A stretch of 40,607 bases of DNA, from NCBI GenBank assembly GCA_029263295.1, contig JAJCXT010000009.1:1-40607 (forward strand), read 5' to 3'. This document shows, piece after piece, positions 9,800 through 38,766 of this stretch. Position numbers and translations under genes: made by a program. This DNA is from Acidobacteriota bacterium. GTDB lineage: Bacteria > Acidobacteriota > UBA890 > WLXD01. Below the pieces are notes generated by a model that was given only the letters and a program-made list of their open reading frames with translations, was not told the DNA's origin and did not search any database. Every line of letters starts with the position of its first letter. The first letter of the stretch is position 1.

Positions 9800-10201
9800 A
9801 TGCCCATATCGAATACGCCGAACATGAGGTGGCAAGAGTTGATCCGCGGCGAGCGACTGCGTGACCTGATCCCGATGAAACCCGAGGCATTCACCGTGCT
9901 GCTCACGCTGCTCCATGAACCCGGTCACGGTTATGCCATCCTGCAGGCCGCAAAGGCCGATCCAGGCGCCCGCGGTGATTTGCAGCCGGGTTCGCTGTAT
10001 CGCCTCCTGGCGCGCCTCCTGGACGCGGACCTGGTGGCCGAGTTGCCAGCGAGCGAGGTGCCAGGCGACGCGGACACGCGCCGCCGGTACTACAGAATCA
10101 CTGCGCTCGGACGGGCAGCCGTAGAGGCCGAGTCGGAGCGCATGGCGGCCCTGGTGGACACCGCGCGCCGGCGGCTGGTCGGCGCCGGGAGCGACCTCTG
10201 A
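9800..10201 (+). CDS. PadR-family transcriptional repressor (ADOP partner)
   Basis: 133 residues from the ATG at 9800; ATGs at 9824 and 9875 are credible alternatives because a TATAAT overlaps the first start and the PadR fold proper begins near residue 26 (MKPEAFTVLLTLL). The winged-helix core has the family phrase HGYAIL, then GSLYRLLARLLDADLVAE and RRYYRITALGRAAVEAE, the standard PadR recognition helix, wing and dimer helix. PadR proteins repress neighbouring transport or stress genes and let go when they bind a ligand. The stop overlaps the start of the ADOP gene (TGATG, 10199-10203), so the pair is coupled. Together they interrupt the atpZ-atpI junction, on the opposite strand to the energy operon. 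Confidence 0.88.
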   Translation: MPISNTPNMRWQELIRGERLRDLIPMKPEAFTVLLTLLHEPGHGYAILQAAKADPGARGDLQPGSLYRLLARLLDADLVAELPASEVPGDADTRRRYYRITALGRAAVEAESERMAALVDTARRRLVGAGSDL

Positions 10202-12822
10202 TGGACGCGCGTAACCTCCCGGTGCGAGCCTCGGTGTGGCTCTATCGCTCGCTGTTGCGGATCTTTCCGGCGTGGTTTGGCCGGCGCTTCGCGGTTGAGG
10301 CCGCTCAGGTCTTCGCGGACGTAGCCGTCGCAGCGTACTCCTCGAAAGGGCTGCTAGGCCTGACGTTGCTCTGGGGCAGGACCTTCTCCGACCTGGCGAG
10401 GGGAGCGTGGCAGGAGAGAGGCACGTACGTGAGCCTCGCGAGTCTCGGCGCGACGCTACGCAGCGCCCCGCGAGCGTTCCGCCGCGAGCCATGGTTCAGC
10501 GCCGCCGTGATCTTGACCATCGGTCTCGGCGTGGGCAGCGCGACCGCAATCTACACGCTGGCCCACGGCATCCTGCTGCGACCCTTGCCGTTTCCCGGCT
10601 CCGAGCGGGTGCTGGCCCTTTGCGAGGTCGATCCCCAGACGGTCGGGTACTGCATCGCTTCGCCTCCCAACGTGCGCGACCTGGGCGCGATGACCGCGGC
10701 CGTTGATCATGCGGGTGTGGCGCGGACCTGGCGATTCCGCCGACAGGACGGGTCAGACAGTACGCCCATGAGAGTAGGGATTGCGACTCCGGGGTTCCTT
10801 CGAGCTCATGAGCCGAGCCTGCTGCACGGCAGGTTGTTCACGGAGTCGGAACTCACACCTGGCGACAATCAGGTCGTTGTCCTGATGCACTCCTTCTGGC
10901 AGGAGTGGGCGGGCGGCGATCCGGGTGTCGTAGGAGGGCCGATTACCCTCGACGGCAAGGACTTCACGATCGTAGGCGTCTTCGAGCCGGACACCTGGTT
11001 CCCGCAGTTCGAACATGCGCTGGCATGGGCCCCGATTACGGCGACGCCCGACAACCCCGACCAGCGTGGCTGGCGCGGCTTTGTCTCGGTCGCGCGAATC
11101 GTCGAGGGCGTGAGCCTGGAGCAGGCCAGCGCGGAACTCGAGGCCAACTATGCGATCCTCGCTGCTGAGTATCCGGAGGATCTGGCCGGTTGGGACCTGC
11201 AGGTCGAGCGTCTCCGCACCCAGATGACGGGGGATGCGGTGCCCGCGATTCGCCTCTTCGGCCTCGCTGTCACCTGTCTGCTTCTTATCGGCTGCGCGAA
11301 CGTCGCCAATCTGCTCATTGTTCGGGCCCAGGCTCGAGCCCCCGAAACGGCGGTTCGTGCCGCGTTGGGCGCCGGAAGGACGCGCCTCGCGGCGCAGTTG
11401 CTGGCGGAAAGCCTGATGCTCTCGGCTGCCGGTGGCGTGGTCGGGATCGGACTGGCGGTTGTCCTGGTGCGGGCCGGAATCGGCTACGCGCCGCCTGGCA
11501 TCCCGAGGCTCGGTGAGGTCGGGATTGATCTCAATGTCGCCGGGTTCGCCCTGGCGCTCTCGATCGTTACGGCACTTGTCTTCGGTCTGGTTCCGGCCCT
11601 GCGTGTCACCCGGACCGATGTCGGTGTCGTGCTTCGGGGCGGACGATTCGGCGATGCCGACGCCGCGCGGATGCGACGGGCCATCCTGGTCATGGAGTTG
11701 GCGCTTGCGATGACCCTGCTAACCGGCGCGGGCCTGGGGATCAAGGGCTTTGCCGGACTCTCCAACTGGGAGCCCGGGTTCGACCAGGAAGGCCTCGTGA
11801 TCACCTGGATGGTCGCGGACTTCAGTCAGGTCGAGAGCGGCGCCGAGATGGTGGAGAGCTTCGACCTGGTAGCGCACGTAGTGGCCGCGCTTCCGGGGAT
11901 TGCTGCCGTCGGCCAAACGTCCACCGGGCCGCTCTTTGGAGGCATCGAAACGGACGAACTGCGGATCGAAGGCGAGCAACCGGGCGGCCAGCTGTCGATG
12001 GCTCAGCACTTCGACATTGGACCGCGCTATTTCGAGACTCTCGGTGTTCCGATGGTCCGCGGTCGGGGTCTTTCCGATTCCGACACCGCAGAGGGGGCGC
12101 CAGTAGCCATCGTGAACGAAGCTCTGGTGCGTCGGTACTGGCCCGATGGTGATCCCATAGGGGCGGAGATCGCGGTCGGCGAGCATGTCGCCACCGTCGT
12201 GGGTATCGTGCGGGACACCCTCCCGTTCGCGCCCGGTGAGCTCGTTCGCCCTTCCGTCTACTGGCCCAAGCGGCAGTACACCCGCGGCGCCACTTACCTG
12301 GTCATGCGTACGGATCTGGCTCCGGCGGAGGTCGAGAAGCTCGTGCGCGAGAGGCTGGCTGCTGAGATTCCCCTGGTAGAGGTGACGCCGTTCAGCGCAC
12401 TGCGCGATCTGGCTGGCCAGGAACTGGTGTCACCGCGATTCCAGATCATGCTGCTCAGCACCTTCGCCCTCACGGCATTGCTGCTTTCGAGCGTCGGCGT
12501 GTACTCGATTGTCGCGTACAGCGTTGCCCAGCAATCGCGTGAGATTGGCGTCAGGCTCGCGCTCGGCGCCCATCCGCGTCGTATTGCCGGTGAGGTAGTG
12601 CGTTCTGGCGTGCGCCTGGCCCTTGTAGGTGGCGCCATCGGCGTCCTGGGTGCCCTCGCCCTGGCCCGCACACTGGAGGCCGTCCTGCACGGCGTCTCGT
12701 CGACCGATCCTCTGGCGCTGGCGTCAGTGGCCACGTTGTTCGTGCTCATCGCGGCCATTGCGTGCTGGCTTCCGGCTCGCCGGGCTGCGCGGGTCGACCC
12801 CGTCGGCGCGTTGCGCGGCTAG
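10201..12822 (+). CDS. ADOP-type MacB/FtsX permease
   Basis: 873 residues. About 90 N-terminal residues (Leu-Tyr-Arg-x-Leu-Leu-Arg-Ile-Phe-Pro and following helix) form the 'permease prefix' seen in PadR-linked members. Then a first unit: membrane helix (about 98-120, followed by LLRPLPF), periplasmic MacB-type core (about 120-340) and three FtsX helices (about 350-475). A second unit repeats this: helix near 495, core about 515-740 and FtsX helices about 750-865, ending with the Ala-Arg-Arg-Ala-Ala-Arg-Val-Asp-Pro motif typical of these permeases. No ATPase is encoded beside it, hence 'orphan'. The substrate is unknown; MacB relatives export peptides, toxins or lipids or remodel the envelope. 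Translationally coupled to padR. Confidence 0.9.
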   Translation: MDARNLPVRASVWLYRSLLRIFPAWFGRRFAVEAAQVFADVAVAAYSSKGLLGLTLLWGRTFSDLARGAWQERGTYVSLASLGATLRSAPRAFRREPWFSAAVILTIGLGVGSATAIYTLAHGILLRPLPFPGSERVLALCEVDPQTVGYCIASPPNVRDLGAMTAAVDHAGVARTWRFRRQDGSDSTPMRVGIATPGFLRAHEPSLLHGRLFTESELTPGDNQVVVLMHSFWQEWAGGDPGVVGGPITLDGKDFTIVGVFEPDTWFPQFEHALAWAPITATPDNPDQRGWRGFVSVARIVEGVSLEQASAELEANYAILAAEYPEDLAGWDLQVERLRTQMTGDAVPAIRLFGLAVTCLLLIGCANVANLLIVRAQARAPETAVRAALGAGRTRLAAQLLAESLMLSAAGGVVGIGLAVVLVRAGIGYAPPGIPRLGEVGIDLNVAGFALALSIVTALVFGLVPALRVTRTDVGVVLRGGRFGDADAARMRRAILVMELALAMTLLTGAGLGIKGFAGLSNWEPGFDQEGLVITWMVADFSQVESGAEMVESFDLVAHVVAALPGIAAVGQTSTGPLFGGIETDELRIEGEQPGGQLSMAQHFDIGPRYFETLGVPMVRGRGLSDSDTAEGAPVAIVNEALVRRYWPDGDPIGAEIAVGEHVATVVGIVRDTLPFAPGELVRPSVYWPKRQYTRGATYLVMRTDLAPAEVEKLVRERLAAEIPLVEVTPFSALRDLAGQELVSPRFQIMLLSTFALTALLLSSVGVYSIVAYSVAQQSREIGVRLALGAHPRRIAGEVVRSGVRLALVGGAIGVLGALALARTLEAVLHGVSSTDPLALASVATLFVLIAAIACWLPARRAARVDPVGALRG

Positions 12823-27955: not shown

Positions 27956-28312
27956 CGTCGTTTCTCCTTGAGGTGCTGAGCAAGATCCGGCCGGCTCCCA
28001 CCAACGTGGCGGCAAGCCGACACAAGTAGAAACGGTCCCCGGAAGGCGTTATTGCGCGGCAGCGCAATTTCTCTGACATCGCCGAGATGCCCGGCGGGAC
28101 GCGCCGCGCGTGAGAGCTGGCTCACAGTGGTGAGTGTCGATCTTCGGAAAAGAGCGTCCGCTGTGGTTATTACGATCAGGTCAGCGTTCCCCGGCGCTCG
28201 AGACCAATGTCGATCATCGGTAGTCGACGGCAGTGCTTATCGCCGGACGCGCAGACCACCGGTCTGGTGTCGGGGTGGTGTTGCGGTCGGCCGCCCCGAA
28301 CCGGGTCAAGTC
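27956..28312. other. Divergent intergenic region (hydrolase / ADOP)
   Basis: 357 bp between divergent genes. It holds the Shine-Dalgarno of the hydrolase (AAGGAG, - strand, about 27963-27968), the dyad at 28051-28068 and a second short dyad CTCAC/GTGAG near 28122-28135. The + frame is open from 28052, but the residues before 28313 are Arg/Ser-rich and do not resemble the permease family, so I treat them as non-coding. No PadR gene or RNA gene is seen. Confidence 0.55.
28051..28068. promoter_or_regulatory. Inverted repeat, possible operator
   Basis: ATTGCGC and GCGCAAT (7 bp each) flank a GGCA spacer, about 95 bp upstream of the hydrolase start and 245 bp upstream of the ADOP start. A perfect dyad in a divergent promoter region is a plausible repressor site; the binding protein is unknown. 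Confidence 0.35.
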
Positions 28313-30748
28313 ATGCTCCTAGACCTCAAGTACGGACTGCGGCTGCTGTTCAAGACGCCGGTGGTGACTGCCGCCGCGGTCCTCACCCTGGCGCTCGGAA
28401 TCGGCGCCAATGCAGCCGTTTTCAGCGTTGTCGAAGCTACCTTCCTGCGCGCGTTGCCGTTTCCTGACTCCGGCCGCATGGTGCAGGTGGAGAGGCGCTT
28501 CCCGACCGACGTGGCACCCAACACATCAGTCCCCCAGTACGTCTTCTGGCGCGATCATTCCGACGTCTTCGAGACCCTCTGCGCCTATGATTGGCTCGAG
28601 TTGGGGTTCAACCTCACCGAGCACGGCGATCCGCTACGTTTGGCCGGCACCCGTGTCACTGCCAGCTTCTTCGATACGTTCGCCGTCCGTCCGGCGCTAG
28701 GCCGGACCTTCAACGAGCAGGAGGACCAGCCCTCGGGGCCGCTGGCCGTGATCCTGTCGGACGGCCTATGGAAAGAGCTGTTCGCTTCGGATCGCGACGC
28801 GCTCGGGGAGTCGCTGCGGCTTAACGGCCAGCCGCACGAGATCATCGGAGTGATGCCGCCCGGATTCCGTTACCCGGCGACGGCCCAGCTGTGGGTGCCA
28901 TTGCAGCCGGACTCGAGCAGTACGGACCGACAGGCGTACCTGCAGGTTACGGGCAAACTGCGCGCGGGGATCACGTCGGAGCAGGCGATGGCCGAGGTTA
29001 CGGCCGCCAACGACGAGTATCTGAGCATTGTCGGCACCGTCGCTGACGGGGAGTTGGTGTCGCTGCGACCGCCTCAGACGATGCTCTTCGGCGAGTTGCG
29101 TTCGACGCTGCTGATAGTGACTGCGGTCGCAGCATTCGTGCTGCTGATTGCCTGCGGCAATGTAGCCAGTCTGCAGCTGGCTCGTGGCGCCGAGCGAACC
29201 CAGGAGATTGCCCTCCGCCGCAGCGTCGGAGCTCCGGCGGCACGCATCGTGCGTCAGTTGCTCACTGAGAGTCTGCTGTTAGCGGCGCTCGGCGGAACGG
29301 CTGGACTGCTGCTGGCGCTGGGCGGCCTGCGACTGGTGGTGGATCTCATCCCTGCCTCGAGCCGCCCGCTGGCCGCCGTCGGGCTGAATGTTCCCGTGCT
29401 GTTGTTCGCCGCTCTGGTAACTGTCGGGGTGGGGACCGCGGTCGGGTTGCTTCCTGCGCTGCGCGCACGGCGGACGAGCGCGGCGAGTCAGCTCAACGAC
29501 TCCACCAGCCGCATCGTGGCCGGAGGCAGGCTACGGCAAGTGGTCGTTGGAACTCAGATCGCCTTGACGGTCGTCGCGCTCATCGGCGCGGGTTTGTTCA
29601 TCCGCAGTTTCCTGTTGCTGGTCAACCGCGACGTCGGCCTGACGGCGGAAGGAGTGCTAACTGCGCACTTGCCGATGGCCGCAGCCACCTATGACGGGCC
29701 CGAAGACTGGCAGGGGCTGTCCGATAGATTGGTGGAGGTGATCGCAGCGCTCCCGGGAGTGGAGGCGACGGCCGCGGCGACCAATCTGCCCATGGCGAGA
29801 GCGCCCGGCATGACCTTCGTCATCGAGGGCGCCCCGGCCCCTGCAACTGATGAGGACGTTCCCGCTGCGCACTACAGACCGGGCACGTCCGCGTACTTCG
29901 CGACGTTCGGCATTGACATCCTGCGTGGGCGTGAGTTCGATGATGGCGATCGATTCGGCAGCGCGGCTGTGGTGATCATCAACGAGCGAGCGGCCGATCT
30001 TTATTGGCCCGGGCAAGACGCGCTAGGTGCTCAGATCACGATCGGCCCACCGGTGTTTCCCCCGCCATTTCATGATCCCAGCCCACGCACCGTCGTCGGT
30101 GTTGTGGCGAATGTCCTCGAAGAGGGACTCGACAGCGTTCCGGAGCCCGTGCTCTACGTCCCGCTCGGACAGGTGCCGGCCGGGCTGATGCGCCGATACG
30201 TGAGTCTGCTGCCGCTGGCGCTCGCGATCAGAACGACGGGCCCCCCCGAGCAGTTCCTGCCGGCTCTGCGCCGGTCGGTGCTGGCGCACGACCCGAACCA
30301 GCCACTGATGGCAATCGACACTCTGGAGGACTACCTTCGGGGGACAGTGGCCGATCGCGAGGCGATCATGCGACTGCTGGTCGTGTTCGGCATTCTGGCG
30401 TTGTTCCTTGCCATGATCGGTGTTTACGGGGTGGCGAGCTACACGGTGCAGCAGCGCACCCGCGAGATAGGCGTACGTGTCGCTCTCGGTGCGGGTAGCG
30501 CCCATATTCGTAAGCTGGTTCTCGGGCAGGGCCTCGTCGCGATATCGATCGGGGTCGCAGGGGGGACCCTGGCGGCGCTTGCTCTCGGTGACCTGGCCGC
30601 GAGCCTTGTGTTCGGGGTCGGCACGCGAGATCCGCTGATCCTGGTCGCGGTGCCTACGCTGATGTTGGGCGTGGCCGCCGCAGCCATGCTGATCCCCGTC
30701 GCCCGTGCCCTCCGGGTCGATCCCGTCCGGGTGCTGCGGGGCGGGTAG
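28313..30748 (+). CDS. ADOP-type MacB/FtsX permease (without prefix)
   Basis: 811 residues from the ATG at 28313, where the family's usual start MLLDLKYGLRLLFKTPVVT begins. It has two MacB/FtsX units: helix about 20-42 followed by FLRALPFPDSGRM, core about 45-265 and FtsX helices about 270-395; then helix about 415-430, core about 435-670 and FtsX helices about 685-805, ending Ala-Leu-Arg-Val-Asp-Pro-Val-Arg-Val-Leu-Arg-Gly-Gly. The characteristic phrase YTVQQRTREIGVRVALGAG is present. No ATPase and no PadR lie beside it, unlike the other two ADOPs here, and it lacks their 85-95-residue N-terminal prefix. The function is unknown (envelope transport or mechanotransmission by analogy to MacB). 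Confidence 0.88.
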   Translation: MLLDLKYGLRLLFKTPVVTAAAVLTLALGIGANAAVFSVVEATFLRALPFPDSGRMVQVERRFPTDVAPNTSVPQYVFWRDHSDVFETLCAYDWLELGFNLTEHGDPLRLAGTRVTASFFDTFAVRPALGRTFNEQEDQPSGPLAVILSDGLWKELFASDRDALGESLRLNGQPHEIIGVMPPGFRYPATAQLWVPLQPDSSSTDRQAYLQVTGKLRAGITSEQAMAEVTAANDEYLSIVGTVADGELVSLRPPQTMLFGELRSTLLIVTAVAAFVLLIACGNVASLQLARGAERTQEIALRRSVGAPAARIVRQLLTESLLLAALGGTAGLLLALGGLRLVVDLIPASSRPLAAVGLNVPVLLFAALVTVGVGTAVGLLPALRARRTSAASQLNDSTSRIVAGGRLRQVVVGTQIALTVVALIGAGLFIRSFLLLVNRDVGLTAEGVLTAHLPMAAATYDGPEDWQGLSDRLVEVIAALPGVEATAAATNLPMARAPGMTFVIEGAPAPATDEDVPAAHYRPGTSAYFATFGIDILRGREFDDGDRFGSAAVVIINERAADLYWPGQDALGAQITIGPPVFPPPFHDPSPRTVVGVVANVLEEGLDSVPEPVLYVPLGQVPAGLMRRYVSLLPLALAIRTTGPPEQFLPALRRSVLAHDPNQPLMAIDTLEDYLRGTVADREAIMRLLVVFGILALFLAMIGVYGVASYTVQQRTREIGVRVALGAGSAHIRKLVLGQGLVAISIGVAGGTLAALALGDLAASLVFGVGTRDPLILVAVPTLMLGVAAAAMLIPVARALRVDPVRVLRGG

Positions 30749-30851: not shown

Positions 30852-33632
30852 ATGTTTCGAATCCTTGCGACGCTCGCCCTTGCGGTCGGTTTGTTGGCCG
30901 GTCAACAGGCGGTGTTCGATCAGGCAGACCTCGACCGCACCGAGGATCTCTCCGAATCGTTGGCCAACGACCTGCTGCGTTTGTCGGTGGCCACCCGTGA
31001 CCGTGACGCGGTAGGAATCGCGCCGCATTGGGCCGATGAGGTCGAGATCACCGGTTTCTTCGACGGGCCCTCCGAGACGCAGGAGCTGCACGACTGGCTG
31101 GGGACGCACTCGTGGGGGACCGGCGGAGCGGAGCGCGTGACGCGCACCGCGTTGATGCAGCGATTCGCCACTTTGCTCGACCACTTCGATTCGATCGACG
31201 ACGCGCGCTTCAAGGTGAAGCGCGCCCAGTTCGTAGAGGGCGACGACCGCGGGACGGCGCGCATCCAGTTCAAGATCGTCGGGCGCGACCGTGAGGGGCA
31301 GCGCGAGTGGCTAGTGTCCTGGGCGGAGGTCGAAGCCGAGCGCGTGAGCGAGGAGGACTGGCAGATCGTCAGTTTCGCGGTGGAGTCGGCGCAGTCCAAG
31401 GTCGCGGCTCGCGACCTGTTCGACGAGGTTGCGGTGCCGGCCGGTGTAGGGACCACGTTCCCGGACTTCGGCAAGGCGCCGAACGACTCGGTCGTTGCCC
31501 ATGGCGCTGCGGTTGCCGATATCAACAATGACGGACTCATGGACGTGCTCGCTACTGGCGTCGAGGGCAATGCCCTCTACCTGAACGAGGGTGACGGCAC
31601 GTTCCGCGACATTTCCGAGGAGACGCTCGTAGGTCTGACTCCAACGGCGAGCGGCGCGGTGTTCTTCGATGCGGACAACGACGGCGATCAGGATCTCTTT
31701 CTCTCCGCGGTCGGTGCGCAGATGTTCCTCGAGAATCGACTGGTCCCGGATGGCTCGCTGGCATTCATGGATATTTCGCCAACCGCTGGCGTCGCACGGA
31801 CGGCGATCGGCTTCAGCCCGGCCGTGGCCGACGTCAACGGCGACGGGCTTCTCGATGTCTACGTCACCGGCTACAACCAGTACGGGATCGTGATGCCGGA
31901 CTCCTGGCACGATGCCCGCAACGGGACGGCCAACCTCCTGTTCCTGAATCTCGGAGGCCTCGAGTTCCGTGAGGCGGGTGCGGAGTGGGGCGTGCGCGAT
32001 CCCCGCTGGGGCTACGCCGCGGCGTTCGCCGACGTCGACGGTGACGCTGATCCCGATCTGTACGTCGCCAACGACTTCGGCCAGAACGCCCTGTACGAGA
32101 ACGTCGGTGGCCGCTTCGTCGACATTGCCGACGAACGCGGGGTCCTGGATCCGGGCAACGGCATGGGCGTGTCGTTCGGTGACTTCCAGAACGACGGACA
32201 CCTCGATCTGCATGTCACGAACATGTCCTCCACCGCTGGCAACCGCATTCTCGCGCGGCTCTTTCCCGAGCAGGACAGTGGCGACCCGCTGCTGCGCAAG
32301 CTGGCCTCGGGCAACACGATGTTTCTGGGAGATGGCGACGGTAATTTTTCCGACATCACCCAGGATCTCGGTGGCATTGGCGCCGGCTGGGCCTGGGGCG
32401 GGGGATTCCTCGACTTCGACAATGACGGATGGGAGGACGTCTACGCCCCGAACGGCTTCATCTCGGGCAAGACGATGAACGACACATGAAGCGTGTTCTG
32501 GCGCCACGTGGTGGCTGCCCAGGCTGAAGCGGAGGAGACGGGTAACTCCGAGTACCAGAACAACCACATGTCGATGATCTTCCAGGAAGGTCTGTCGTTC
32601 AGTGGTTACGAGCGCGACTACCTGGGCATGAACGTCGGTGGCACCGAGCTCATCGATGTCTCAGGCGTATCGGGCCTGGACGCGATCGGCGACGGCCGCG
32701 GCGCCGCGCTGGCCGACTTCGATAACGATGGTGATCTCGACATCTTTCTGGTGTCCTTCCAGCGCAATGCCCACGAGTTGTTCCGCAACAACATCGGCAG
32801 CGACCACGGCTTCGTTCGTGTGGCGCTGGAGGGCACCGAGAGCGGACGCGACGGCTTTGGCGCAATCGTTCGCGCGGGCACGGCGAACGGAGTGGTCACC
32901 AAACTCAAGTCGGCCGGTTCGGGCTTTCTGGCACAGAATGACCCCCGCCTGTTGATCGGGCTCGGAGCGGCCGCGCAGGCGGACTGGATCGAAGTGTCGT
33001 GGCCGAGCGGGGTGGTTCAGCGAGTCGACGGGCTCGACGGGGCGGCCGGGATTCCCGCCGGCGTCTCCGTGCTCATCCGCGAGGGCGGCACTGTGACGCG
33101 GGTAGATGAACAGACATTCGCGCTGGCGGATCCGCTGAGCAGCGAAGAGCGCACGTTCGCCGGCCTGACGTTCGGTCGCGGTGACGTGTTCCCGGACCTG
33201 GGCCTGCTCGATCGCGACCAAGTACCTGATGGCGTCGAGCTTCCTGGCTCCGCGGCGACGACCGTGCACGAACTGCTGCGGCCAGGCCGCCGGACCCTAC
33301 TCAACATCTGGGCAACCTGGTGTGTTCCTTGCCGGCGCGAGATGCCGCAACTCGAGCAACTGAGTGGGCCGTTGGCAAAGGCCGGTGTTGACCTGATCGG
33401 CATCAGCATCGATACCGACACGGCGGCGCGTGTCGTGCCGTTCCTCAGCGATATGGGCACGACGTACCCGGTACATGTGAGCAACGACTTGCGCATTCCC
33501 GGACTCTACGAGGGCGATGCGATCACGGTACCGCTGTCGGTCCTGCTCGACGACCAGGGTCGCGTGCTGCAGGTGATCGGCGGCTGGTCGGTGGAAACCG
33601 CCGAGCAGTTCCACGAGTTGACGCAGCGCTAG
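30852..33632 (+). CDS. Candidate selenoprotein: exported CRTAC1/FG-GAP-ASPIC/UnbV protein fused to a TlpA-like thioredoxin (in-frame TGA)
   Basis: A single frame of 926 codons if the TGA at 32487-32489 (codon 546) is read through. Order: signal peptide (MFRILATLALAVGLLAG); NTF2-like region (about 25-190); six FG-GAP/VCBS calcium-loop repeats (DINNDG, DADNDG, DVNGDG, DVDGDA, DFQNDG, DFDNDG); the phrase NGFISG-KTMNDT, then TGA, then SVFWRHVV; a seventh repeat (DFDNDG); an ASPIC/UnbV domain (about 650-745, with RDGFGAIVRAG and SGFLAQNDPRLLIGLG); and a TlpA-like domain (about 790-926) with Cys824-Val-Pro-Cys827. Frame, repeats and codon use continue unbroken across the TGA. A SECIS-like stem-loop follows, and selA lies 3.7 kb downstream. 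From memory, relatives often carry Cys in the segment before F-[FY]-W-R; I could not check this. Alternatives are a recent nonsense mutation, a sequencing error, or reinitiation at GTG 32493. Confidence 0.75.
32487..32489 (+). other. In-frame TGA, possible selenocysteine codon
   Basis: TGA lies in phase with both the upstream (30852) and downstream (to 33632) coding sequence, between codons for Thr and Ser. No other stop occurs in that frame over 2.8 kb. The position is just after the sixth FG-GAP repeat, at the join to the conserved Phe-Trp-Arg segment. Confidence 0.65.
32500..32519 (+). promoter_or_regulatory. Bacterial SECIS-like stem-loop
   Basis: GGCGCCAC (32500-32507) pairs with GTGGC (32511-32515) and GCC (32517-32519), giving 8 bp with a single bulged T at 32516 and a GTG loop (32508-32510). 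An alternative outer pairing CTGG/CCAG (32498-32501; 32519-32522) could replace the lower pairs. The loop begins with G and lies 18 nt after the TGA, within the range known for SelB-binding bacterial SECIS elements, whose apical loops carry a G and U. Confidence 0.6.
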
Positions 33633-33870: not shown

Positions 33871-34203
33871 GTGTCCGACTCTCTCTCTCTGAACTCCGCG
33901 CAACTCCACATCCTGCTCGCGCTGCTTGATCGACCGCGACACGGTTACGCGATCATGGTCGACGTTCTGGAAAGCACGGGTGGCACCACGCGCCTCTGGC
34001 CCGCCACTCTCTACAACACGCTCAAGAAGCTCGCCGACGCAGAACTGATAATCCAGGTCGACGATCCCGACGGCAGCGACGATGCTCGGCGCCGGGCGTA
34101 TGCGCTGACCGACCTCGGGACGCGGGCGCTTGATCAGGAAGCCGACCGGATGCAGAGGCTGGTGGATGCGGTCCGGGCGAAGCGTACCGAGGCGCGGTCT
34201 TGA
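33871..34203 (+). CDS. PadR-family transcriptional repressor (ADOP partner)
   Basis: 110 residues from GTG at 33871, supported by AAGGAG 10 nt upstream and by the usual PadR start (SDSLSLNSAQLHILLALL). An ATG at 33811 is in frame but lies within the AT-rich promoter island. Motifs: HGYAIMVDVLESTGG, LWPATLYNTLKKLADAELI, ARRRAYALTDLGTRALDQE, making winged helix plus C-terminal dimer helix. The stop overlaps the next start (TTGA, 34200-34203), so it is coupled to the ADOP gene. It resembles the repressor at 9800 in fold and gene order, but their sequences are only distantly alike. Confidence 0.9.
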   Translation: MSDSLSLNSAQLHILLALLDRPRHGYAIMVDVLESTGGTTRLWPATLYNTLKKLADAELIIQVDDPDGSDDARRRAYALTDLGTRALDQEADRMQRLVDAVRAKRTEARS

Positions 34204-36839
34204 TTCCTCTGCTGCGATGGCTTGCCCGGCTGTTGTCGCCGGCTTTGGTCCGCCAGATGGGCCCTGCGCTAGACGGTGCGATCGAGGAGACCTGGCGTTG
34301 TGAGACACAAGGTCGCGGCAAAGCACGCCAGGCGCAGATTGCGATGCTTCTGATTGCTGATCTGCTCAAACAGATCGTTGTTACTCGACGCAGCACGGCA
34401 TTCGGCCGTGGTCTGCAACCCGACTCCCCGCTCGGTGGCTACGAACCCATGCATACCTTCCTTTCTGACCTGACCTTCGGTATCCGTAACCTCGCGAGGA
34501 CCCCAGTGCCGTCGCTCGTGATGTTGACGACGCTAGCGCTGGGCATCGGCGGGAGCACCACGGTATTTACGCTGTTCAACGCGGAGCTGGTTAGCCCGCT
34601 TCCTTACCGGGAGGCGGAACGGCTCCTGAGCGTGACCTTCGAGCTGGACGGCTCGCCGCGGAACTTCTCGGGACTCAACTTGGACTCGCTCGCTGAGCAG
34701 GCGGGTTCGTTCGAGTCCATAACCGGTTTCGATGATCGAAAACTGTTCAACGTCACCGGCGGCGATGAGCCCGTCCGCCTGTACGGCGCGGCTGCCGACG
34801 CGACTTTCTTCACCACTCTGGGGGTCGAACCGATCTTGGGTCGGACCTTCCTGGCCAGCGATGATCAGCCGGGCGCTCAGCGGGTCGTCGTCCTTGGAGA
34901 GGGCATCTGGCGCAGTCTGTTCGCTGGCGATGAGGACATCGTCGGCCGTTCGGTGCAGCTGAACGGACTCGCCTATGCAGTTATCGGGATCGCTCCCGGA
35001 ACGCTGAAGATTCCGAATCGCGAACAGCTCTGGGTAGCGCTGGCGACACACCCCTACGGCGACAACCGGTCGCAGGAACGCGACAACACGTACCTCGAGG
35101 TGGTCGCCAGACTCGCCCCCGGAGTACGCCTGGGCGAGGCTCGTGCCGAGATGGAAGCCGTTTCGCGAAGGCTCGCGGCGGCCTATCCCGATGCTAATGC
35201 GGATAGCCGCGTGCGCCTCGCGCCACTCCGCGAGTCGCTGGTGGGGAGCAATCGCGCGCTGCTGGCCACGCTCATGGGGGCGGTCGTGGCTGTCCTGCTG
35301 ATCGCCTGCGTCAACATCGCGGCTCTCCAAGTTTCGCGTGCTGCCGCTCGCCACAAAGAGCTCGCCGTCAGGCTCGCTCTGGGGGCCACACGTGCACGAA
35401 TCGCTCGGCAGTTGCTCACCGAAGCGCTCGCCCTCAGCGCGTTGGCCGGGATTGCTGGCATCGGTGCGGCTGTCTGGTCGCGCCGCATCATCTTGACGGC
35501 CCTGCCCGGCCAGTTTCCACGCCTCGAACACGTCGGCATGGACGCTACCGTGCTGTTGTTCGTGGCCGCGGCCACGTTGGGTTCCGCGATCCTGTTCGGT
35601 GTGCTGCCCGCGTTGCTCGTGTCGGCGGCGAGCCCGTTGAGCAGCCGGATCGGCGGCTCGGCCGATCAGCGCACCCGGTCGCGGGTCCGGAAGGGCCTGG
35701 TCGTGGCCCAGGTCGCCTTCGCGCTCGCACTGTTGGTGAACGCCGGCTTGCTCGCTCGCAGCGTGGCGCATCTCGCTGGTGTCGACAATGGCTTTGACGG
35801 TTCCGGAGTCCTCACCGCCAGCCTCTCCGTGCCGGAGAGTCGCTACGATGACGACGCGACGATCGCGTTCTTCGCGGAGGTGCTCGGTCGACTCAACAGC
35901 ACCGGTACGTTCGACGCTGCCGCGGCCATCAATCGGTTGCCGGTGTCCGGTGGAACGAACATCGCGACCTTCTCGATCGAGGGGCGTGACGCCGAATATG
36001 AGGCCGCAAGCCACGTGCGCATGGTGTCGCCCGAGTACTTCGAGACCATGTCGATCCCGGTGCGTGAGGGTAGGGGATTCACTGCCGGCGATTTCGCCGC
36101 ACGCCAGCCGCTCGCGATAGTCGACGCCGAGTTCGCGAGTCGCCACTGGCCGGATGGCGGAGCTGTTGGCGCGCGCGTCCAGCCCGGCCGCGGCGCGCCG
36201 TGGTTCCGTGTCATCGGTGTCGCTGGGGCGACCCGGCATTGGGGACCTCGTTTCGATCCGGAGCCAACGATCTACGCTCTGTACTCGGTCGTTCCCGAGG
36301 CGACCATGATGCTCGCGTTGCGTGCGGCCGGTGATCCGCTCGCACAGGTCGCGGACCTTCGCCGTATCGTCTGGTCCGTGGACCCGGAAATCCCAGTTGA
36401 ACAGATTCGGACGATGGACGACGCCGTGGCGGCGTCTGTGATCGACTCGCGCGCGAGCGCCACCGTCTTCGGACTCTTCTCGGCCTTCGCGTTGCTCCTG
36501 GCCTCGCTGGGCGTATACGGCATGCTGGGGCAGTCGGTTGCCCGGCGGACGCGCGAAATCGGCATCCGGCTCGCGCTGGGGGCGGACCGGCGCAGTGTCC
36601 ACCGGTTGATCATGCGCGAGTGCCGCCAGGTCAGTGGGGTCGGCGTGCTCGTCGGCCTCGGCGTTGCGTTGGCCACCAGTCGGGCGATTGCGGCCCAGCT
36701 GCATGGCATCGAACCTTTCGATCCGGTTACCTTCGTCGCGATTGCGCTGCTGCTGTTCGCGGCGGCGGTACTAGCTGCTCTGATCCCCGCTCGTCGCGCG
36801 ACCCGGATCGATCCACTTCGCAGTCTCCGGGCTGACTAG
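34200..36839 (+). CDS. ADOP-type MacB/FtsX permease
   Basis: 879 residues from TTG at 34200, overlapping padR by 4 bp; an ATG at 34449 (residue 84) would drop the 'permease prefix' helix region (residues 1-83). Two MacB/FtsX units follow: helix about 99-120 then LVSPLPYREAERL, core about 120-340 and FtsX helices about 345-480; helix about 495-510, core about 515-745 and FtsX helices about 755-870, ending Arg-Arg-Ala-Thr-Arg-Ile-Asp-Pro. The phrase RRTREIGIRLALGADRRS marks the family. No ATPase is encoded nearby. The transported or moved molecule is unknown. A long open frame on the opposite strand is a codon-bias shadow. Confidence 0.9.
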   Translation: MIPLLRWLARLLSPALVRQMGPALDGAIEETWRCETQGRGKARQAQIAMLLIADLLKQIVVTRRSTAFGRGLQPDSPLGGYEPMHTFLSDLTFGIRNLARTPVPSLVMLTTLALGIGGSTTVFTLFNAELVSPLPYREAERLLSVTFELDGSPRNFSGLNLDSLAEQAGSFESITGFDDRKLFNVTGGDEPVRLYGAAADATFFTTLGVEPILGRTFLASDDQPGAQRVVVLGEGIWRSLFAGDEDIVGRSVQLNGLAYAVIGIAPGTLKIPNREQLWVALATHPYGDNRSQERDNTYLEVVARLAPGVRLGEARAEMEAVSRRLAAAYPDANADSRVRLAPLRESLVGSNRALLATLMGAVVAVLLIACVNIAALQVSRAAARHKELAVRLALGATRARIARQLLTEALALSALAGIAGIGAAVWSRRIILTALPGQFPRLEHVGMDATVLLFVAAATLGSAILFGVLPALLVSAASPLSSRIGGSADQRTRSRVRKGLVVAQVAFALALLVNAGLLARSVAHLAGVDNGFDGSGVLTASLSVPESRYDDDATIAFFAEVLGRLNSTGTFDAAAAINRLPVSGGTNIATFSIEGRDAEYEAASHVRMVSPEYFETMSIPVREGRGFTAGDFAARQPLAIVDAEFASRHWPDGGAVGARVQPGRGAPWFRVIGVAGATRHWGPRFDPEPTIYALYSVVPEATMMLALRAAGDPLAQVADLRRIVWSVDPEIPVEQIRTMDDAVAASVIDSRASATVFGLFSAFALLLASLGVYGMLGQSVARRTREIGIRLALGADRRSVHRLIMRECRQVSGVGVLVGLGVALATSRAIAAQLHGIEPFDPVTFVAIALLLFAAAVLAALIPARRATRIDPLRSLRAD

Positions 36840-37317: not shown

Positions 37318-37365
37318 GCGTAAGGTTGGTCGGCGGCAGTGCCGTCGCCTAGCTCCCGGGGAAAC

Positions 37366-38766
37366 ATGGTCCACGTCAGTGAACTGTTTCGGCGCTTGCC
37401 GCGCATGGACGAACTGCTTGACCATCCACGCCTGCTCGAGTGGATGGTGGAAGCGGGGGTTTCGCGGGAGTTTGTTCGCGAAGCGGCTACGCATGTGCTG
37501 GATGCTCTGCGCGAGGCGATTGCCGCGGACGAGTTGTCGGAGGAGGGGCTGCAGGAGCTCCTCGATGATCCGGCGGTAGCGGTCGTGCGCGCGTCGGAGG
37601 CCCTCGTCGAGCCACACTTGCGACGGGTCGTGAACGGTACCGGCGTTGTCGTGCACACCAATCTGGGGCGGTCGCCGTGGCCGCAGAGTGCGGCGCAGCG
37701 GGTGGCGGAGCTCGCCACCGCGTACACCAACCTCGAGTTCGACCTCGAGGGGGGCAGCCGGGGCGGCCGCGAGCGCCCGGTGAGTCGGTTCCTCGAGCGC
37801 TTGCTACCCGGCGTTGCGGTCGCAGTAGTGAACAACAACGCGGCCGCGGTGTTGCTCGTACTGAACACGTTCGCTCAAGGACGCGAAGTCATCGTGTCGC
37901 GCGGCGAGCTGGTGGAGATTGGCGGCTCGTTCCGGATCCCGGACGTTATGGAGAAGGGCTTCTGCAAGCTGCGCGAGGTGGGCACGACGAACCGCACTCG
38001 GATAGGCGACTATCGCGCGGCGATCGGCCCCCACACGGGGCTGCTGCTGTCCGTGCACCCGAGCAACTACCGCGTTGTCGGTTTTACCGAATCGACGCCG
38101 CTCGAGGAACTCGTCGAACTCGGCCGGGAGCACGATGTGCCGGTCGCCGAGGACCTCGGGAGCGGAAATCTCGTCGGCGCGGGCATGGCAGGGCTGGACG
38201 AGCCGACGGTTGCCGCGCGCCTGGCAAGTGGCGTCGATCTGCTGACCTTCTCGGGGGACAAACTGCTGGGCGGCCCGCAGGCAGGGTTCATCGTCGGCAA
38301 GCCTGAGGCCGTGGAGCGCTGCCGCGCGAATCCGCTCTATCGCGCGATGCGGCTCGACAAGACGACGCTGCTAGGGCTCGAGGCGACGATGATCGACTAT
38401 GTGGCCGGGCGCTACGACGCGATCCCGGCACTGCGCATGTTGCGTCGCGCAGAGGCGGATCTGCACACCGACGCCGAATGCCTGGCCGGCCTGGTGCACG
38501 ACGTGGTGCCAGAGCTGGGCCTGGAGATCCTGCAACTCGAATCGCGCGTCGGCGGCGGCGCGGCCCCCGAGGTTGGCCTCTCTTCCTGGGGCGTGGCCAT
38601 CACCGCGCCGGAGATCAGTGCCGACGAGCTCACCCGCCGTCTGCGAAGCACCGCGCCCGCGGTAGTCGGCCGCGTCATAGACGACCGCCTAGTGATAGAC
38701 GTCCGCACCCTACTCGACGGTGACCGTGAACGAGTAGCCTCAGCCCTGTCCCAAGCCGCAATCTGA
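37366..38766 (+). CDS. selA: L-seryl-tRNA(Sec) selenium transferase
   Basis: 466 residues from the ATG at 37366 (GGGG 5-8 nt upstream; a GTG at 37339 would add nine residues), close to the 463 of E. coli SelA. The N-terminal helical domain (LFRRLPRMDELLDHP) is followed by VVNGTGVVVHTNLGRSPWP, the GGSRGGRE loop, VNNNAAAVLLVLN, and the PLP-lysine motif TFSGDKLLGGPQAG (Lys near residue 304). SelA is a PLP enzyme that converts seryl-tRNA(Sec) to selenocysteyl-tRNA(Sec) with selenophosphate. Its presence means the genome probably decodes UGA as selenocysteine. selB usually follows selA, but here the convergent rng gene follows; selB, selD and selC are not in the window. Confidence 0.96.
   Translation: MVHVSELFRRLPRMDELLDHPRLLEWMVEAGVSREFVREAATHVLDALREAIAADELSEEGLQELLDDPAVAVVRASEALVEPHLRRVVNGTGVVVHTNLGRSPWPQSAAQRVAELATAYTNLEFDLEGGSRGGRERPVSRFLERLLPGVAVAVVNNNAAAVLLVLNTFAQGREVIVSRGELVEIGGSFRIPDVMEKGFCKLREVGTTNRTRIGDYRAAIGPHTGLLLSVHPSNYRVVGFTESTPLEELVELGREHDVPVAEDLGSGNLVGAGMAGLDEPTVAARLASGVDLLTFSGDKLLGGPQAGFIVGKPEAVERCRANPLYRAMRLDKTTLLGLEATMIDYVAGRYDAIPALRMLRRAEADLHTDAECLAGLVHDVVPELGLEILQLESRVGGGAAPEVGLSSWGVAITAPEISADELTRRLRSTAPAVVGRVIDDRLVIDVRTLLDGDRERVASALSQAAI

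Follow-up and report, generated by a model that had tools for sequence, protein, structure and literature searches.

A candidate family of exported beta-propeller selenoproteins with a CRTAC1-like domain architecture

A gene from an Acidobacteriota genome carries an in-frame UGA at codon 546 that is almost certainly read as selenocysteine (Sec), judging from its sequence context and that of its homologues. The gene lies in a stretch of 40,607 nucleotides (contig JAJCXT010000009.1, referred to as the window) and is interrupted only by this codon. It is highly probable that the two frames on either side constitute a single gene for an exported selenoprotein. Sequence data could hardly give stronger support to the decoding of the UGA, and no description of the family turned up in the literature that was searched; its function we infer.

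The first-pass annotation of the window had read the two frames, which share one phase, as one gene split by the TGA, and this reading holds. Positions 30,852 to 33,632 of the forward strand form one frame of 926 codons with a terminal TAG, in which codon 546 (32,487–32,489) is the sole in-frame TGA. In a comparison with L104, a homologue from the same genus, the two halves have equally low dN/dS (0.067 upstream and 0.094 downstream of the UGA), and two more distant relatives likewise give similar values on either side. Hence, selection at the protein level acts on the downstream half just as it does on the upstream half.

The predicted protein comprises an N-terminal hydrophobic export signal, an N-terminal domain of ~190 residues, an FG-GAP beta-propeller (residues ~215–660, 31,494–32,831; Pfam FG-GAP_3/FG-GAP and Foldseek), an ASPIC/UnbV domain (PF07593, Pfam UnbV_ASPIC; 32,853–33,035) and a TlpA/ResA-like thioredoxin domain (33,216–33,578; Redoxin, E = 1.7e-13, with similarity to ResA/TlpA structures), all encoded on the forward strand. 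FG-GAP repeats followed by ASPIC/UnbV are the layout of CRTAC1-type proteins, and the thioredoxin fold carries the CxxC motif of the TlpA/ResA type in the form CVPC (Cys824 and Cys827, 33,321–33,332). These are the only cysteines of the protein, which together with Sec546 gives three redox residues in all. The UGA itself falls in the motif D-T-U-S-V-F-W-R within an insertion of the propeller (residues ~536–600). As had been proposed, the ASPIC/UnbV and Redoxin/TlpA domains follow in series, and Pfam places both 3' of the TGA. The accompanying claim of FG-GAP repeats on both sides stands for the 5' side, while the 3' match is weaker (E = 1.2e-4) and just under the cut-off. Export is plausible from the hydrophobic N-terminus, and the sequences of several homologues read as lipoprotein-like at this end. 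In the AlphaFold model of the protein (mean pLDDT 84), confidence drops to ~66 around Sec, which with this modest local certainty would sit near the start of a helix in the bacterial propeller insertion. Three ADOP-family duplicated permeases are also encoded in the window (10,201–12,822, 28,052–30,748 and 34,200–36,839), two of which flank the selenoprotein gene.

Decoding signal and selenocysteine machinery

A hairpin with the layout of a bacterial SECIS element follows the UGA at 32,495–32,523 (forward strand), with a core stem GCCAC/GUGGC (32,503–32,507/32,511–32,515) and a GUG loop (32,508–32,510). Its apical loop lies 18 nt after the UGA, in register and within the published limits for such elements (PMC13188914). 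An Rfam scan of the window gave no match at gathering scores. The folding energy of the hairpin is unexceptional (z = 0.15 over 55 nt and -1.2 over 29 nt), so that the initial argument from a SECIS-spaced stem-loop is weak by itself; it is the covariation across homologues that makes it strong. A hairpin with a G-containing loop 17–20 nt downstream of the UGA is found across the Sec forms. When genes were recoded synonymously with the protein kept fixed, the mean best energy of a G-loop hairpin was -7.46 in the UGA genes, a much stronger hairpin than the -2.71 of their recoded versions, whereas sense-codon homologues did not differ from their own recodings (-2.11 versus -1.86).

Covariation was examined in the subtype to which we refer as A, for which 77 distinct sequences were compared. 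Pairs 17-29, 18-28, 19-27 and 20-26 are formed in all of them, a pairing matched by none of 2000 shuffles; as related sequences are non-independent, P-values here serve as guides only. Pair 18-28, between the last position of the Arg codon and the first position of the codon four places later, occurs as UA, CG, GC, GU and AU. The residue encoded there (Thr, Ala, Pro or Ser) thus follows the RNA pair. Similarly, pair 20-26 changes from AU to GC where Gln-Val-Val becomes Arg-Val-Ala. The 22 sense-codon homologues exhibit no excess pairing over shuffles. In other subtypes, where the protein context differs, the hairpin has a loop of the GGUC type, as in GCGC-GGUC-GCGC at 20 nt. A divergent subtype with the motif DGUTCLWRAVV (L158 and L162; L243 and L242) has a strong but different hairpin with the loop CGUGAC, 20 nt after the UGA.

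Synthesis of Sec requires the product of selA, L-seryl-tRNA(Sec) selenium transferase. This gene had been noted in the same window and is confirmed at 37,339–38,766 on the forward strand by an above-cut-off match to TIGR00474 (E = 1.1e-158); it lies 3.7 kb downstream of the selenoprotein gene and is not adjacent to it. The remaining components, for which a search of the genome had been recommended, were all found in the source assembly (3.36 Mb in 122 contigs, 78% complete): SelB (364 bits, over the cut-off), SelD (295 bits) and a tRNA-Sec with the anticodon TCA. The genome therefore holds the full set of SelA, SelB, SelD and tRNA-Sec(UCA) expected of a bacterial selenoprotein producer. The SelD match (L186, G000:C35:14028-14933) is located inside an open frame of 906 codons that possibly encodes a fusion protein, or whose length may simply reflect the GC-rich genome. 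In the proposed mechanism, the hairpin just 3' of UGA-546 would recruit SelB with its charged Sec-tRNA, and the codon would then be read as selenocysteine.

The distribution of SelB is in line with such decoding. Among Acidobacteriota with a strong homologue, SelB was detected in 41 of 44 genomes with the UGA form versus 9 of 20 with sense forms only (p = 5e-5), and in Planctomycetota the corresponding figures are 58 of 62 versus 132 of 232 other genomes (p = 5e-9). Of the genomes behind the first loci collected, 26 of 28 have SelB. Where it was not found in a UGA genome, selA was present in one case and tRNA-Sec in six of the seven tested, so that assembly gaps explain nearly all exceptions; the lone remaining one (G265) is a genome of 72% completeness. 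With this one exception, the UGA form is confined to Sec-using genomes.

Homologues, replacement of selenocysteine and proposed function

The homologue search suggested for column 546 returned UGA at this very column in 125 distinct genes of the tree set, from at least six phyla (Acidobacteriota, Planctomycetota, Verrucomicrobiota, Gemmatimonadota, Myxococcota and Latescibacterota). Full-length relatives of 43–49% identity, with TGA at exactly the same codon, had come from a scan of species genomes. For Acidobacteriota, 396 genomes were searched with a profile of the Sec region and the column was read by profile alignment; in a Planctomycetota sample, 83 of 294 genomes matched, and part of their further TGA-bearing matches were read individually at the Sec column. 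The Sec site occurs in several versions, namely D[TL]USxFWR[QH]VV, DLUSDLWRxVVR, DTUSEYWRAVVR, DLULPYILSAVAH (of the group DLULPYxxxAVAH), DLUSCFWSTVV and DGUTCLWRAVV. The original claim of a new selenoprotein is therefore supported, with the correction that the family is not peculiar to the genome in which it was noticed. It is large, is represented in numerous phyla and frequently occurs in multiple copies within a genome. In the planctomycetotal genomes G783 and G814, ten and eight CRTAC1-type matches were counted, respectively, and the verrucomicrobial genome G420, the source of L047 and of loci L190, L194 and L196-L201, contains eight genes of the CRTAC1 type, each with one in-frame TGA. 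Plasmids furnished weak relatives only.

No conserved neighbour was found around the genes of subtype A. In some Acidobacteriota, an FG-GAP plus TPR protein is encoded directly 3' of the Sec gene (L017:12949-16665 and L021:12774-16229). Two tandem Sec-type CRTAC1 genes without thioredoxin domain are part of a cluster (L031:2079-15791) together with genes for two ketoacyl synthases, an HMG-CoA reductase, an FAD amine-oxidase/desaturase-like protein, an acyltransferase and an ABC1/UbiB kinase. In L038 and L039, the gene sizes form an identical series. Possibly, this type of cluster encodes a lipid or terpenoid pathway that makes use of selenoproteins.

In close homologues with a sense codon, Sec is replaced by S, A, G, N, D, E, Q, H or R. 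On the tree, some six changes account for these forms, which branch from within the UGA forms. The largest clade without Sec belongs to the Acidobacteriota, and genomes that lack SelB are among its members; here, drift has left S, A, G, N, Q, D or E in the column, and in planctomycetotal paralogues it holds E, H, R, N, A or Q. Non-Cys sense residues at this position, with no other UGA cases, had been named beforehand as evidence against a selenoprotein. Such residues do occur, but as lineage-specific losses nested within a set of over 100 UGA cases. At the Sec column, Cys was encountered solely in a distant sister clade characterized by DYC[ST]xxW (two genes in L156, as well as L202, L261 and L262) from Acidobacteriota, Planctomycetota and the verrucomicrobial G420; among close relatives, no Cys homologue was found. 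Such homologues are the usual discovery criterion for bacterial selenoproteins and not part of their definition.

A hint at function comes from the thioredoxin domain. CxxC is intact in all 95 Sec forms with a readable TlpA domain and broken in 21 of 25 readable Sec-less forms, the latter representing few independent losses. This pattern is in keeping with a relay whereby Sec is recycled through the TlpA disulfide, although independent contrasts of Sec and CxxC (four pairs, of which two agree, none opposes and two are neutral) are not significant. Sec would attack its substrate outside the cytoplasm and become oxidized, upon which the CVPC pair of the protein's own TlpA domain would reduce it in each cycle. 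As read from the sequences, there is about an even chance that Sec indeed acts as the attacking redox residue of an extracytoplasmic oxidoreductase recycled in this manner. A peroxide or another small oxidant is a first and rather doubtful guess for the substrate. The product would typically combine a CRTAC1-like FG-GAP propeller and ASPIC/UnbV with a C-terminal TlpA/ResA thioredoxin domain, and the branches without this domain would use a separate reductant.

Conceivably, Sec instead binds a metal or another ligand in the propeller of what would still be a selenoprotein, with the TlpA domain serving another client. Sec subtypes that lack a thioredoxin domain, i. e. both tandem genes of L031 as well as the second one of L047, would be accommodated by such a site, as would the four Sec-less genes that keep CxxC (L041, L062, L168/L239 and L137/L233) and the charged replacements E, D, H and R, which could suit ligand binding. 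Yet, A, G, S and N are found as replacements as well and would be unable to keep a ligand, and an unrelated role of the TlpA domain sits less well with the observation that CxxC never varies in Sec forms but is decaying in most forms without Sec. We regard ligand binding as a real possibility, if on balance the less likely one.

Alternative readings of the UGA codon

Three further readings dispense with selenocysteine altogether. If UGA-546 were a true stop, two proteins would result, a truncated FG-GAP protein and a downstream product restarted at the GTG at position 32,493. This is very unlikely: in close homologues, a sense codon at the column keeps a single frame open throughout, the hairpin covaries in UGA forms only, and these forms track SelB. 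An in-frame GTG does follow just 3' of the TGA, and the TGA itself is situated in a propeller insertion that resembles a linker, but the codon after the UGA is in most homologues one for Ser and not a start codon.

Decoding as some other amino acid, via a changed code or general read-through, is more improbable still. The frame would be open under this assumption, too. However, UGA ends selA, nuoM, nuoH and a sigma-factor gene in the same window, so the code is standard. Moreover, Trp in the selenoprotein gene is always encoded by UGG (18 codons), UGA is seen at one column only, and a SECIS element is accompanied by all four Sec genes. An assembly error or a recent nonsense mutation in a pseudogene, for which a single, fragmented and incomplete genome might leave room, can practically be dismissed, as the same UGA is present in independent genomes of the same genus, family and order and in the other genes of the tree set, and as selection persists after the UGA (dN/dS 0.09).

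Relation to known systems

To our knowledge, the soil and marine lineages that host the family are not noted for rich selenoproteomes, and public annotation pipelines probably split such genes in two. The family looks like one of the more widespread among bacterial selenoproteins. It offers ASPIC/UnbV proteins a putative redox function that can be tested, and it points to selenium-dependent chemistry outside the cytoplasm. The architecture had been put forward as undescribed among selenoproteins, and indeed the table of a catalogue from May 2026, which covers 119 families and subfamilies of prokaryotic selenoproteins, contains no CRTAC1/FG-GAP/ASPIC family (PMC13188914). The family differs from those catalogued by its motif, D-x-U-S/T/L in place of UxxC or CxxU, and by close homologues that have no Cys. 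NCBIfam release 20 has no equivalog for any subtype tried, and literature searches for CRTAC1, ASPIC, UnbV or FG-GAP in connection with selenium, mostly in open-access main texts, gave nothing relevant.

It appears that the family was overlooked because its close relatives never carry Cys in place of Sec. The deep-Sep method filters by Cys homologues, and its authors state in their 2025 paper that every known selenoprotein now seems to have a Cys counterpart (PMC12013277). Since close Cys homologues are essentially absent here, searches based on Cys pairs will miss this family and perhaps others. Whether we are dealing with a large and ancient, hitherto unlisted family of exported beta-propeller selenoenzymes whose Sec works together with a TlpA domain of its own polypeptide, and that escaped Cys-based searches since Sec was lost to non-redox residues, we judge to be evenly balanced.

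Similar selenoproteins are the UGC-containing TlpA disulfide reductase and ResA-like WAxxUGC proteins (NF041054), with which the protein shares its probable export and a TlpA/ResA-type domain. Its match to NF041054 is weak (39 bits, cut-off 300), and instead of Sec inside the thioredoxin motif it has a plain CVPC, Sec being located ~278 residues upstream in the propeller. The propeller itself is shared with CRTAC1, the best match in both structure and sequence (murine crystal structure 9etn; Foldseek hit 9etn_A, E = 1.8e-27). CRTAC1 possesses neither Sec nor a TlpA domain, and the Sec-region profile aligns with it only beyond the Sec-bearing insertion. The C-terminal domain with its CxxC is that of the TlpA/ResA thiol-disulfide oxidoreductases (1jfu, 1st9), but here it is fused to a propeller selenoprotein, for which it perhaps acts as an internal reductant.
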